NCBI GenBank assembly: GCA_012030815.1
Contig: JAAUVF010000068.1
Coordinates: 1 to 5,758 of the forward strand
Source: Nanobdellota archaeon
GTDB lineage: Archaea; Thermoproteota; Nitrososphaeria; Nitrososphaerales; Nitrosopumilaceae
Direction of reading: 5' to 3'
DNA length: 5,758 bases
The notes beneath the pieces are model-generated. The model did no database searches. It was not told where the DNA came from and saw only the letters and a list, made by a program, of their open reading frames with translations. This document shows, piece by piece, positions 3,263-5,758 of the stretch. A program made the translations under genes and the position numbers. Each line of letters begins with the position of its first letter. Within the stretch, counting starts at the first letter, position 1.

Positions 3263-3415
3263 TTAATTTTTTTGATTTAATGTTTCTATTCCTCCTTTGT
3301 ATTTTTCTTTATACAAAGTTCTACATGATGTACAACAAAAAAATCTCTCAAAATTTGCTATTTTGAGAACATGTGGTTTGTTAGAAATTTGACCTTTACA
3401 CAAATCACATGTCAT
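3263..3415 (-). CDS. TRASH-type zinc-ribbon segment (50 aa), probably the C-terminal half of the regulator
   Basis: A short frame runs from ATG 3415 to TAA 3265-3263. It begins MTCDLCKGQI, continues through KPHVLKIANFERFFCCTSC, and ends KEKYKGGIETLNQKN. The cysteines fit the TRASH spacing C-x(19-22)-C-x3-C exactly: C6, twenty residues, C27, three residues, C31. C3 and C28 are extra. TRASH domains bind metals and in archaea are known fused to Lrp-type HTH regulators that sense copper and other metals. The HTH segment lies directly upstream on the same strand in another frame. Repairing one A-run insertion and two deletions in the linker joins them. As a free-standing protein it could act as a metal chaperone, but the join is the better reading. 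No in-frame upstream start exists before a stop, so if independent it starts at 3415. Confidence 0.75.
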   Translation of the reverse strand: MTCDLCKGQISNKPHVLKIANFERFFCCTSCRTLYKEKYKGGIETLNQKN

Positions 3416-3477
3416 TTTAAAATCATGTTTTTTGTTATCTTTCCATCGTGTTTTTTATAGATTTTATCTTTATACCT

Positions 3478-3693
3478 TCAAGATGTTTTTTCTGTCTTGT
3501 TTTCAAGCATCCCCAGATCGATTATTGGTGATACCGATTTTATCAATCCCACATTAACTAATCTTTCATATCTGGCTTGAACAGTAGGAGTACTTACTTT
3601 AATTTCACGAGATATCTGTCGAAATGATTTTCTCCCATCTTTTATCAATGATTCAATTATTGCAATATCTATATCGTCAGGCTGAAATGGCAT
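3478..3693 (-). CDS. Lrp/AsnC-type HTH segment (71 aa), probably the N-terminal half of an Lrp-TRASH regulator
   Basis: The ATG at 3693 opens a clear Lrp/AsnC winged HTH: DDIDIAIIESLIKDGRKSFR (helix 1), QISREIKVSTPTVQARYERL (helices 2 and 3, recognition part STPTVQARYERL), and the wing/exit NVGLIKSVSPIIDLG. Typical Lrp proteins continue into a ligand-binding RAM domain. Here the frame instead ends at TGA 3480-3478 after KTEKTS. If the six-A run (complement of 3486-3491) is read as five, the frame continues HLEGIKIKSIKNT. With two single-base restorations it then runs DGKITKNMILK into the TRASH domain at 3415, for a total of 143 residues. That length and order match known archaeal Lrp-TRASH metal sensors. 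It is divergent from the thiol/metal unit starting at 3777, and divergent regulators usually control the facing genes and themselves. Confidence 0.85.
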   Translation of the reverse strand: MPFQPDDIDIAIIESLIKDGRKSFRQISREIKVSTPTVQARYERLVNVGLIKSVSPIIDLGMLENKTEKTS

Positions 3694-3724: not shown

Positions 3725-3738
3725 TTTACAATTGTAAA
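3725..3738. promoter_or_regulatory. Perfect 14-bp palindrome, candidate operator between divergent promoters
   Basis: TTTACAATTGTAAA is its own reverse complement. It sits between the two probable TATA boxes of the divergent regulator and thiol/metal genes, so one dimer bound here could affect both. Its core TACAATTGTA fits the TACANNTGTA pattern of bacterial copper repressor (CopY) operators. The archaeal regulator is from an unrelated family, so that match may be coincidence. Confidence 0.55.
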
Positions 3739-3744
3739 GTACAC

Positions 3745-3751
3745 TATTATT
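3745..3751 (+). promoter_or_regulatory. TATA-like box for the CcdA-YHS-glutaredoxin unit
   Basis: TATTATT is centred about 29 bp before the ATG at 3777, so transcription would begin at or a few bases before that codon. It overlaps the TTG at 3750, which argues against that TTG as the translation start. Confidence 0.4.
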
Positions 3752-3776: not shown

Positions 3777-4763
3777 ATGTCAACCCAAATTGCTATGAAA
3801 AAATCTCTTGTCACTGCTTTGTTTGTACTTTTTTCACTAATTTTTGTTGGAGGTGTATTTGCAGCTACTAATGAAATTGCAATAGGGGCTGGAAATGAAT
3901 TATCATATCCTTCATGGTTGGTAATTGCATATCTTGCAGGTTTATCTATGATAATTTTACCATGCACACTTCCACTAGTTTTCATCATAATTCCACTTAG
4001 TATGGGTAAGGGTGCAAAAAAAGGACTAAGTATGAGTATGTTGTTTGGTGCTGGTCTTACTATTACAATTGCACTTTATGGATTTGGAATAGGTCTACTT
4101 GGTCAAACAGCTGATTTGGATCGTATTTCCATTTTACTTTATTTGGTTGCTGGCATTGCAGCATTTCTTTTTGGTTTATCACAACTAAAACTATTTGAAT
4201 TAAAATTACCTACATATTCTGGAACTCCAAAATTTATTCAACAACGTGGAGATTACTCGAAATCATTTTTCATGGGACTGTTGTTGGGAAATGCAGGCGT
4301 TGGTTGCCCAAATCCTATGTTTTATTGGTTGTTAATTTACATAGCAGGAACTGGAAATATGGAAATTGGTGCAAGTCTTGGTGCAGTACATGGAGTAGGA
4401 AGAGCAATACCATTAATTCTTTTATCTGTATTAGCTATCATTGGAGTAAATGCTACAAAAGGAATTACTACAAATAAAATAACTATCGAAAAACTTACTG
4501 GATGGATGTTGATATTTTTAGGTGCATTATTAATTATTCATGGTATACCTGGTGGTCATGAATGGTATGAAACTACATTTGTACATCTTGCATGGAATAA
4601 TTTTATTTCAACAACTTCGCTACCGCCCGAATTTCATATTAGTCAGCATACTCATCACTATGATTTTCAAATGCCACAAGAATATGCACCTATTTTATTT
4701 GGTGCATTAATTGCATTCCCAATCGTATGGTATTTTACTCGTAAAAAAATACTAACAACATGA
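3777..4763 (+). CDS. CcdA/DsbD-type membrane thiol-disulfide transporter with His-rich loop (328 aa)
   Basis: CcdA/DsbD proteins carry electrons across the membrane through a cysteine pair, passing reducing power from cytoplasmic thioredoxins to extracytoplasmic partners. This one has a signal or first membrane segment (residues about 9-29) and then about six core helices. The pair is placed as in the family: C63 in LPCTLP and C177 in GCPNP, the only cysteines in the protein. Unlike short CcdA proteins (about 190-240 residues), it has a C-terminal addition. Residues 255-294 hold seven histidines (H255, H261, H270, H287, H291, H293, H294) before a last helix (about 303-320). ATG 3777 is chosen over TTG 3750, which lies in the promoter; ATG 3795 is also possible. 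The stop overlaps the next start in ATGA, showing tight coupling to the YHS protein. Confidence 0.85.
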   Translation: MSTQIAMKKSLVTALFVLFSLIFVGGVFAATNEIAIGAGNELSYPSWLVIAYLAGLSMIILPCTLPLVFIIIPLSMGKGAKKGLSMSMLFGAGLTITIALYGFGIGLLGQTADLDRISILLYLVAGIAAFLFGLSQLKLFELKLPTYSGTPKFIQQRGDYSKSFFMGLLLGNAGVGCPNPMFYWLLIYIAGTGNMEIGASLGAVHGVGRAIPLILLSVLAIIGVNATKGITTNKITIEKLTGWMLIFLGALLIIHGIPGGHEWYETTFVHLAWNNFISTTSLPPEFHISQHTHHYDFQMPQEYAPILFGALIAFPIVWYFTRKKILTT

Positions 4764-4897
4764 AAGATCCTGTTTGCGGTATGGATGTTGGAGAAAAAGG
4801 AGATAAATTAGAATACAATGGAAAATCATATCGATTTTGCTGTGCTAGTTGCAAATGGGCCTTTGAACAAAATCCTGTTCAATTCATAAAATCATGA
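4760..4897 (+). CDS. YHS-domain metal-binding protein (45 aa)
   Basis: The whole protein is one YHS domain: DPVCGMDV at the N-terminus, then LEYNGKSYRFCCASCKWAFEQNP and a short tail. Cysteines are at C6, C28, C29 and C32. YHS domains are found alone or attached to heavy-metal ATPases and are thought to bind metal. It starts inside the stop of the CcdA-like gene (ATGA 4760-4763) and ends inside the start of the glutaredoxin-like gene (ATGA 4894-4897). The three should therefore be made together, in ratios set by translational coupling. Its FCCASC motif closely resembles FCCTSC of the divergent regulator's TRASH domain, suggesting both see the same metal. The likely role is a small cytoplasmic metal carrier or buffer; the metal itself is unknown. 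Confidence 0.88.
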   Translation: MKDPVCGMDVGEKGDKLEYNGKSYRFCCASCKWAFEQNPVQFIKS

Positions 4898-5115
4898 ATG
4901 TGCTAGTTCTTACCACTCCTGGATGCTCAAATTGTAATGTTCTTGAGAAGATGTTAGATGAACTAGGCATAAAATACGAATTAATTGATGTAACTCAAAA
5001 GCCTGAATATTTAGAAAAATACCCAATATTTACAGCCCCTGGTTTGGTTATTGATGGAAAATTAGAGTTTACAGGCCTTCCTAAAAAAGAAGATTTGCAA
5101 AAGAAATTTTCATAG
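4894..5115 (+). CDS. Glutaredoxin-like / small thioredoxin-fold protein (73 aa)
   Basis: The sequence begins with a strand (MNVLVLTTP) leading into the active site C11-S-N-C14. It continues through a helix and second strand (YELIDVT) to the cis-proline loop TAPGLVIDG (P49), then a short strand and C-terminal helix. Length and order match small glutaredoxin/NrdH-type proteins. They reduce disulfides in the cytoplasm, and some thioredoxin-fold partners work with CcdA. The ATG overlaps the TGA of the YHS gene, so it is the third gene of the coupled unit. A likely job is to pass electrons to C63/C177 of the membrane protein, or to keep the YHS cysteines reduced. There is no signal peptide, so it stays in the cytoplasm. 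Confidence 0.88.
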   Translation: MNVLVLTTPGCSNCNVLEKMLDELGIKYELIDVTQKPEYLEKYPIFTAPGLVIDGKLEFTGLPKKEDLQKKFS

Positions 5116-5133: not shown

Positions 5134-5184
5134 ACTCTAAAAATTATGGTATTTTCAAATGACTGATTACTCAATGAATGAAAA

Positions 5185-5409
5185 ATGATCCTTGTACAAT
5201 ATGCAATTAAAAAATATGAAAATGAAGAAACTGTTATTGAAAAATTAAAGACTATTTTATCTGAGAAGGACATTCAAAGAAATATTGACACATTGATTGG
5301 AACACAAAGAGTACGAAGAATAGGTCCAGAAATTCTTCAAAACAATGAAAGTCATACTGAGATTCCTGATTTACCTGATAATCTAAAGCCAATAGTTGAT
5401 CAACTATAG
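5185..5409 (+). CDS. Small hypothetical protein (74 aa or slightly longer)
   Basis: An intact frame runs from ATG 5185 to TAG 5407-5409. The first 45 residues look helical and charged (AIKKYENEETVIEKLKTILSEKDIQRNIDTLIGTQRVRRIGPEIL). The tail is acidic and proline-rich (HTEIPDLPDNLKPIVDQL). There are no cysteines and no membrane segment. An alternative start at ATG 5159 reads MTDYSMNEK and would join this frame if the five-A run at 5181-5185 were six, adding nine residues. The family is not recognised. A short AT-rich stretch at 5138-5145 could serve as a TATA box. It lies between the thiol unit and the nickel transporter, but nothing ties it functionally to either. Confidence 0.65.
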   Translation: MILVQYAIKKYENEETVIEKLKTILSEKDIQRNIDTLIGTQRVRRIGPEILQNNESHTEIPDLPDNLKPIVDQL

Positions 5410-5445: not shown

Positions 5446-5758
5446 ATGTGGGGTAAATTGTTAGAAGAAATATTTGGTCAAATTAGTAATTTTACCCCTG
5501 CTTTAATTGCTGGGTTTGGATTAGCACTTGGAATTCAACATGCATTTGAAGCAGATCATATAGCTGCAGTCTATACTCAATTAAAAAATTCTAGCACCAT
5601 ACAATCAAAAAAACAGCTTTTCAAATCAAGTTTCACAAAATCTTCCTTACTTGGTGCTGTTTGGGGAGCTGGCCATACAACTACTTTAATTCTTGTTGGT
5701 TTACTTGTTTATGGATTTACACTTACATTACAAAAAGAAATTTTTTCTGGATTTGAAT
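5446..5758 (+). CDS. NiCoT/UreH-type nickel-cobalt transporter, N-terminal 104 aa (partial)
   Basis: The frame begins at ATG 5446 and runs off the right edge. It shows the signature of nickel/cobalt permeases: HAFEADHIAAVYTQ (residues 32-45), containing HX4DH (H32, D37, H38), in a helix starting LIAGFGLALGIQ. A second conserved block follows, GAVWGAGHTTTLILVGLLVYG (70-90). These proteins import Ni2+ or Co2+ across the cytoplasmic membrane; UreH-like members are linked to urease or other nickel enzymes, and cobalt would serve cobalamin synthesis. An upstream ATG at 5430 is followed by a stop in its frame, but would enter this one (MMSRTHVGK) if the four-G run at 5450-5453 were three. The start is therefore uncertain by a few residues. 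It sits 36 bp after the small unknown gene. Confidence 0.85.
   Translation, partial: MWGKLLEEIFGQISNFTPALIAGFGLALGIQHAFEADHIAAVYTQLKNSSTIQSKKQLFKSSFTKSSLLGAVWGAGHTTTLILVGLLVYGFTLTLQKEIFSGFE

Follow-up and report, generated by a model that had tools for sequence, protein, structure and literature searches.

A CcdA-YHS-redoxin gene unit of Nitrosopumilaceae as a candidate copper-linked thiol relay

The stretch analysed here, 5,758 nucleotides of contig JAAUVF010000068.1 from an archaeon of the Nitrosopumilaceae (hereafter the window), carries three overlapping genes that encode a CcdA membrane thiol carrier, a small YHS-domain protein and a CxxC redoxin, all full length in this record. With a probability of about 0.6, the unit is a transmembrane thiol relay within a copper regulon, working by a logic like that of the Scs system and including a cytoplasmic YHS metal binder. 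A preliminary description of the same sequence had already interpreted it as a possible metal-thiol relay, an interpretation that is partly supported by the results below. The unit names candidate partners of a membrane thiol carrier on the inner side and, in one lineage, on the outer side of the membrane. Moreover, a newly found palindrome upstream of ccdA, TTTACAATTGTAAA, is a short candidate operator by which further members of the regulon might be recognized. A literature search over open-licence papers found no description of a CcdA-YHS-redoxin unit.

Results

The three genes and their products

The unit proposed in the preliminary description, in which CcdA, YHS and redoxin genes are joined by ATGA overlaps, was confirmed by the positions of the open reading frames (ORFs) and by Pfam matches (Table 1). 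The overlaps are located at 4760-4763 (ccdA/YHS) and 4894-4897 (YHS/redoxin), and an alternative in-frame start of ccdA is the TTG at 3750.

Table 1. Positions of the operon, its candidate operator and adjacent features in the window.
Feature	Position	Strand	Description
TRASH half of Lrp-TRASH regulator	3263..3415	-	separate ORF, Pfam PF08394 (6.2e-7)
HTH_AsnC half of Lrp-TRASH regulator	3478..3693	-	separate ORF, Pfam
Palindrome TTTACAATTGTAAA, 14 bp	3725..3738	.	between regulator and ccdA; candidate Lrp-TRASH operator
ccdA	3777..4763	+	ORF, ATG start; CcdA/DsbD-TM membrane thiol carrier, 328 amino acids
YHS gene	4760..4897	+	ORF; single-domain YHS metal binder, 45 amino acids
Redoxin gene	4894..5115	+	ORF; Thioredoxin_3/glutaredoxin-like CxxC protein, 73 amino acids
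Downstream ORF, no assigned function	5185..5409	+	about 83 amino acids in many relatives, shortened in the window record
NicO-like transporter	5446..5757	+	below Pfam cut-off; cut by window end

CcdA belongs to the DsbD_TM family (PF02683; E 4.6e-11, 42.9 bits against a cut-off of 27.1), and its closest cluster, from a Nitrosopumilales archaeon, is 91% identical. It contains exactly two cysteines, C63 and C177, which, together with H270, are invariant in 32 of 32 aligned sequences. An AlphaFold2 model consists of long helices (mean pLDDT 76.9), and hydropathy, charge and the model helices together predict eight membrane segments with the C terminus inside. An extra C-terminal helix is predicted as well, and the 46-residue loop 257-302, which holds H270 and features six His with zero Lys or Arg, would be located outside.

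The YHS protein is a member of PF04945 (E 2.8e-16, 59.7 bits against a cut-off of 30.3), in which C6, C27 and C31 are invariant over 16 aligned rows and C28 is common. The redoxin was assigned to Thioredoxin_3 (PF13192; E 4e-15, 56 bits against a cut-off of 24.8) and also matches Pfam Glutaredoxin (E 2.1e-9); its motif is C11-S-N-C14, and C11, C14 and P49 are invariant in 15 rows, the motif mostly being CSNC. By sequence, the redoxin matched PDB entries 1fo5, 4fiw and 1ilo, and the same PDB search returned no match for CcdA and none for YHS. No CcdA relative was found in the viral contigs searched, and the plasmid search gave two records, of a distant Fusobacterium CcdA.

Conservation and gene fusions

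A contig scan of named genomes yielded 66 CcdA loci. The core set of 50 records consists of the window and the 49 loci nearest to it, and 17 loci were set aside (ten divergent paralogs, six from Candidate Phyla Radiation (CPR) bacteria and one from Clostridium). Two core records end at ccdA, and 48, the window included, have readable downstream DNA. The next gene after ccdA encodes YHS in all 48, and the redoxin follows YHS in 46 of them. The ATGA of ccdA/YHS is kept in 47 of 48 records and that of YHS/redoxin in 34 of 46. Thus the three genes are neighbours in relatives as well, and the check that the preliminary description had named as able to refute its interpretation did not do so. In the wider search, CcdA was found at E <=1e-30 in 84 of 400 genomes of the order, 83 of which belong to the 250-genome family list. 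One core locus (L041) comes from a metagenome-assembled genome titled Planctomycetota bacterium and is probably an archaeal contig that was binned with a bacterium.

Single proteins that join neighbouring members of the operon are known for both pairs: CcdA-YHS fusions (P0122-P0128, DsbD_TM plus YHS) account for seven of the 120 clusters listed, and YHS-redoxin fusions (P0242 and P0243, YHS plus Thioredoxin_3) for two of the 120 clusters listed. At the DNA level, CcdA and YHS share one frame in L049, with a similar protein in L050, and the YHS-redoxin frame of L011, which is counted among the 46, reads through without a stop. In L049 (2064-4160, 4404-5606) the gene of the CcdA-YHS fusion and that of a P-type ATPase with an N-terminal YHS domain are divergent. 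Since the C terminus of CcdA is predicted to be inside, a YHS domain fused there would be cytoplasmic. Several 113-residue 'grx' ORFs (L023, L039 and others) were rejected as fusions, their upstream extensions being in another frame. The claim that the three proteins serve one pathway is therefore supported by synteny, by fusions of both adjacent pairs and by a candidate operator shared in part of the relatives.

Among the loci set aside, YHS-redoxin is located 1-2 kb downstream of ccdA in L053, L055 and L056, and about 3 kb off on the opposite strand in L052 and L054, where in L052 it is divergent from an HMA P-type ATPase. The CPR loci L058, L059, L061 and L065 have a redoxin after ccdA and no YHS. 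The CPR CcdA proteins (L058, L059, L061, L062 and L065) are 38-51% identical to the archaeal one and have a redoxin nearby; L062 additionally has a cupredoxin, an HMA P-type ATPase and a DoxX-like protein (the last recognized by eye, with no Pfam match). These CPR loci suggest that a copper module has crossed from one domain to the other. A 717-residue CcdA that runs into a Met/His-rich extension was also noted by eye in L062 (6001-8154).

A divergent regulator and a candidate operator

The preliminary description had the unit facing a metal-sensing regulator. The Lrp-TRASH gene is real and is whole in relatives, at about 142 amino acids (for example, L030 5492-5920, minus strand, where HTH_AsnC and TRASH lie in one protein, the domain composition of CopR-type regulators), yet in the window it is split over two frames.

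In 15 core records Lrp-TRASH is no more than 2.5 kb away, and 14 of these have the palindrome, at up to two mismatches, upstream of ccdA, as against 3 of the 33 other records (Fisher 1.9e-8, ignoring relatedness). The exception among the 15, L034, carries the variant TTTTCAATTTGTAAA. The CopR motif of Pyrococcus furiosus is given as TTNNCAWWWTGNNAA, directly upstream of the B recognition element, in an excerpt of PMC7830388; TTTTCAATTTGTAAA fits it letter for letter, and the common TTTACAATTGTAAA is one W shorter.

Within the window alone, the loose pattern has a single match, and 39 of 200 shuffles also have one, which is not significant; the palindrome draws its weight from the genome counts. 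Across the 250 family genomes, the exact palindrome has 199 sites, spread over 97 genomes, compared with 11 sites in 11 of 250 for the reversed control. It was also present in 11 genomes of a 13-genome sample, chosen for ccdA loci bearing the palindrome or Lrp-TRASH, with zero control matches.

The sites were further examined against a seed list of genes. Among seeded neighbours, the palindrome mostly lies 12-47 bp from the ORF start, with a TATA-like sequence after it (by eye). In the 13-genome sample, sites away from ccdA separate an HMA P-type ATPase from Lrp-TRASH (L079), YHS from a Met-rich protein (L081), and a sialidase-like gene from a Met-rich one (L067 and L080), a DSBA protein then following in L067. 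Across 24 tool-chosen loci of the family scan (L082-L105), the start of a seeded gene is located within 400 bp in 12, and in none of 11 control loci (Fisher 0.005, ignoring relatedness); this test was not blind, the seed list having been drawn up after earlier sites had been seen. Four of the 12 seeded loci are ccdA, and the other eight are DsbA, DUF4396/DoxX, sialidase-like, HMA ATPase and plastocyanin-like ORFs. Two further sites were missed by the 400-bp rule: L090 adjoins an ATPase, and in L105 DsbA is the second gene. A 139-residue protein faces the HMA ATPase across the palindrome in L090, L092 and L127 (1867-2286).

DsbA and copper-gene neighbourhoods

Gene order was determined in 22 regions around listed palindrome sites, a selection that favours dense clusters and leaves out unlisted multi-site genomes (for example, G124 with 11 sites). 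Six of the 22 contain ccdA, and in five of these six a DsbA-like gene is directly upstream. The order in the five (L106, L107, L108, L110 and L123, from five genomes) is plastocyanin-like, DsbA, CcdA, YHS and redoxin, with Lrp-TRASH near. The sixth, L125, has a 265-residue ccdA reading with one counted stop, and no YHS or redoxin is labelled there. Pfam matches in L107 comprise plastocyanin, Thioredoxin_4/DSBA, a multicopper oxidase, a trypsin-PDZ protease and a ferric-reductase-like protein. The motif of the operon DsbA is CSNC or CPNC where printed. Such islands bear on the suggestion in the preliminary description that disulfides are reduced outside the membrane: the DsbA genes favour it, but among the core records the plastocyanin-DsbA arrangement is found upstream in only 2 of 50 (L039, which is the same place as L123, and L041). 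DsbA was thus rejected as a constant member of operons of the window type.

A CopA-like ATPase is no farther than 4 kb from ccdA in L049, L050, L052, L054, L062 and L064. Those of L049, L052 and L062 carry CPC, YN and MxxSS, the signature of Cu+-transporting P1B-1 ATPases, and in L079, where the ATPase gene runs off the contig, CPC alone is seen.

Other features of the window

The protein of about 83 residues encoded downstream of the redoxin is linked to the unit in 33 of the 50 core records, and a Pfam search of its L030 copy (7391-7642) gave no match. NicO was rejected as a fixed member, being near the unit in only 5 of 50. Searches of the window for tRNAs and against Rfam gave no match. 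Apparent genes are split across at least two frames at 249-1146, 1211-2003, 2253-2988, 3263-3693 and 5158-5409 (some by eye). As a nitroreductase, Lrp-TRASH and other genes are split, the record looks frameshift-rich, and the broken genes may be sequencing errors.

Discussion

Proposed mechanism

In the relay proposed here, a cytoplasmic reductant would pass electrons to the CxxC redoxin, from there to C63/C177 of CcdA, and on to DsbA-type CxxC proteins outside, a path that is suggested because it follows established DsbD/CcdA chemistry. The DsbA-type proteins would then keep in the reduced state those thiols of outside proteins that bind copper or have been damaged by it. The YHS protein may bind Cu(I) in the cytoplasm next to CcdA, serving as a buffer or chaperone, and the redoxin could keep its cysteines reduced. 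Where present, the CopR-like Lrp-TRASH and the palindrome would control the unit jointly with HMA ATPase and DsbA genes. We infer the direction of electron flow, Cu(I) binding by YHS and regulation by copper; the specificity for copper is suggested by the gene neighbours, the likeness of the operator and the P1B-1 motifs of related ATPases. DsbA is a neighbour in one lineage, and for the window's own organism we infer it as the outside partner. A bolder and rather improbable version would make CcdA a combined conduit: YHS would hand Cu(I) to the membrane Cys pair, the redoxin would supply electrons, and the two would travel out jointly, by way of the His-rich outside loop, to DsbA and to copper proteins of a copper-based respiratory chain; the CcdA-YHS fusion would be the one-piece form.

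Several observations weigh against the copper-linked relay. Neither Lrp-TRASH nearby nor the palindrome is found in 30 of 48 core records. No CopA-like ATPase is located within 2.5 kb upstream in any of the 50 core records, and plastocyanin-DsbA is upstream in just the two named above; this scarcity of DsbA or copper genes directly upstream makes the relay within a copper regulon less probable and a general thiol role more so. In L037 and L038 the palindrome, ccdA and YHS are kept with other genes in place of the redoxin, and the paralogous set-aside loci L047, L048 and L051 have neither YHS nor redoxin. Half of the family-scan sites (12 of 24) lack a seeded gene in the surrounding 400 bp, some being inside genes. 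In an excerpt of PMC7785015, DsbD family genes of Nitrososphaera viennensis rise under Cu limitation, not excess, and DsbD of Nitrosopumilus maritimus is said there not to respond, so that a copper response of the unit could take either sign. CopR/CopA of P. furiosus answers added copper, as excerpted (PMC7830388).

Alternative explanations

The unit might instead reduce or repair disulfides outside the cytoplasm in general, with the copper neighbours incidental to abundant copper proteins and YHS an accessory redox sensor. The many core units lacking both regulator and palindrome, the rarity of copper genes directly upstream and the variety of thiol tasks served by CcdA families would fit such a role. 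However, it is YHS, and not the redoxin alone, that is kept in 48 of 48 records and fused to CcdA; the L079 palindrome adjoins both an HMA ATPase and Lrp-TRASH; and the L049 fusion is divergent from an ATPase that starts with YHS. We regard this general role as unlikely, though a serious contender. Assembly of CuA or cupredoxin sites, in which the relay would reduce copper-site cysteines for copper insertion rather than under stress, is likewise an unlikely explanation that deserves attention. A cupredoxin (CxxxCxxxH) is encoded between ccdA and YHS-redoxin in L053 and L055 and after ccdA in the CPR locus L062, a plastocyanin-like gene comes first in the island operon, and induction of the N. 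viennensis DsbD in Cu limitation (PMC7785015, as excerpted) points the same way. The window operon itself, however, has no cupredoxin gene, a plastocyanin-like gene followed by DsbA is confined to L039 and L041 in the core set, and the pairing of Lrp-TRASH with an HMA ATPase speaks for a role in copper excess.

Mercury had been named beside copper in the preliminary description. In detoxification of mercury or another soft metal, YHS would act as a MerH-like carrier, with thiols provided by the redoxin and CcdA. The YHS and TRASH families are related, Sulfolobus MerH belongs to the latter, and the 139-residue palindrome neighbour in L127 has a weak MerC match (E 0.0024, below cut-off). That sub-threshold match is all that was found for mercury, no MerA search having been made, whereas related ATPases carry CPC/YN/MxxSS and genes for a multicopper oxidase and plastocyanin are present in the L107 island. 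Copper is thus the best reading of the metal, given also the palindrome by HMA ATPase and Lrp-TRASH, and detoxification of mercury or another soft metal appears very unlikely. The classical role of CcdA, cytochrome c maturation, is suggested by annotators, who call the protein a cytochrome c biogenesis protein. Yet none of 151 family genomes (the source genome not among them; 9 of 14 controls positive) has a match to Cytochrom_C_asm (PF01578), and genomes of ammonia-oxidizing archaea are reported to lack cytochrome c proteins in an excerpt of PMC4010524. On the PF01578 result this role was set aside as exceedingly improbable.

Comparison with known systems

The CcdA/ResA and DsbD pathways of cytochrome c maturation share with the unit a DsbD_TM domain with two membrane cysteines, but differ in that the unit belongs to a family whose 151 genomes gave no PF01578. 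The archaeal cop cluster is represented by CopT/CopM/CopA of Sulfolobus, where CopM is a small TRASH/YHS metal binder, like the YHS protein of the unit. CopR/CopA of P. furiosus also resembles the unit, having an HTH plus TRASH regulator, a divergent target and a semi-palindrome of nearly the same form (PMC7830388, as excerpted), but the divergent target in the window is the putative thiol relay and not a copper ATPase.

The DsbD of N. viennensis (arCOG02398) is similar at the family level, being an archaeal DsbD that is copper-responsive in that organism, and in the excerpted PMC7785015 the legend of the same figure, which shows upregulated clusters, names a sialidase gene. Unlike it, the unit has candidate partners (redoxin and YHS) in its operon. 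Ammonia-oxidizing archaea are described in excerpts of PMC7785015 and PMC4010524 as using copper proteins where others use haem.

The nearest known system in logic is ScsB/ScsC of Salmonella, Proteus and Caulobacter, in which a DsbD-family carrier keeps an outside thioredoxin-fold partner reduced and which is connected with copper tolerance. Both Salmonella proteins are reported to bind Cu(I), and ScsB has periplasmic alpha and gamma domains (PMC8900818, as excerpted). The unit differs in having CcdA alone; its operon includes a redoxin and YHS, and some of the relatives also have a candidate operator of archaeal Lrp-TRASH. ScsB periplasmic domains together with ScsC define the Scs system, whereas the window CcdA consists of the membrane part and the 46-residue loop only; by analogy, therefore, the unit would work like Scs without being a member of it.
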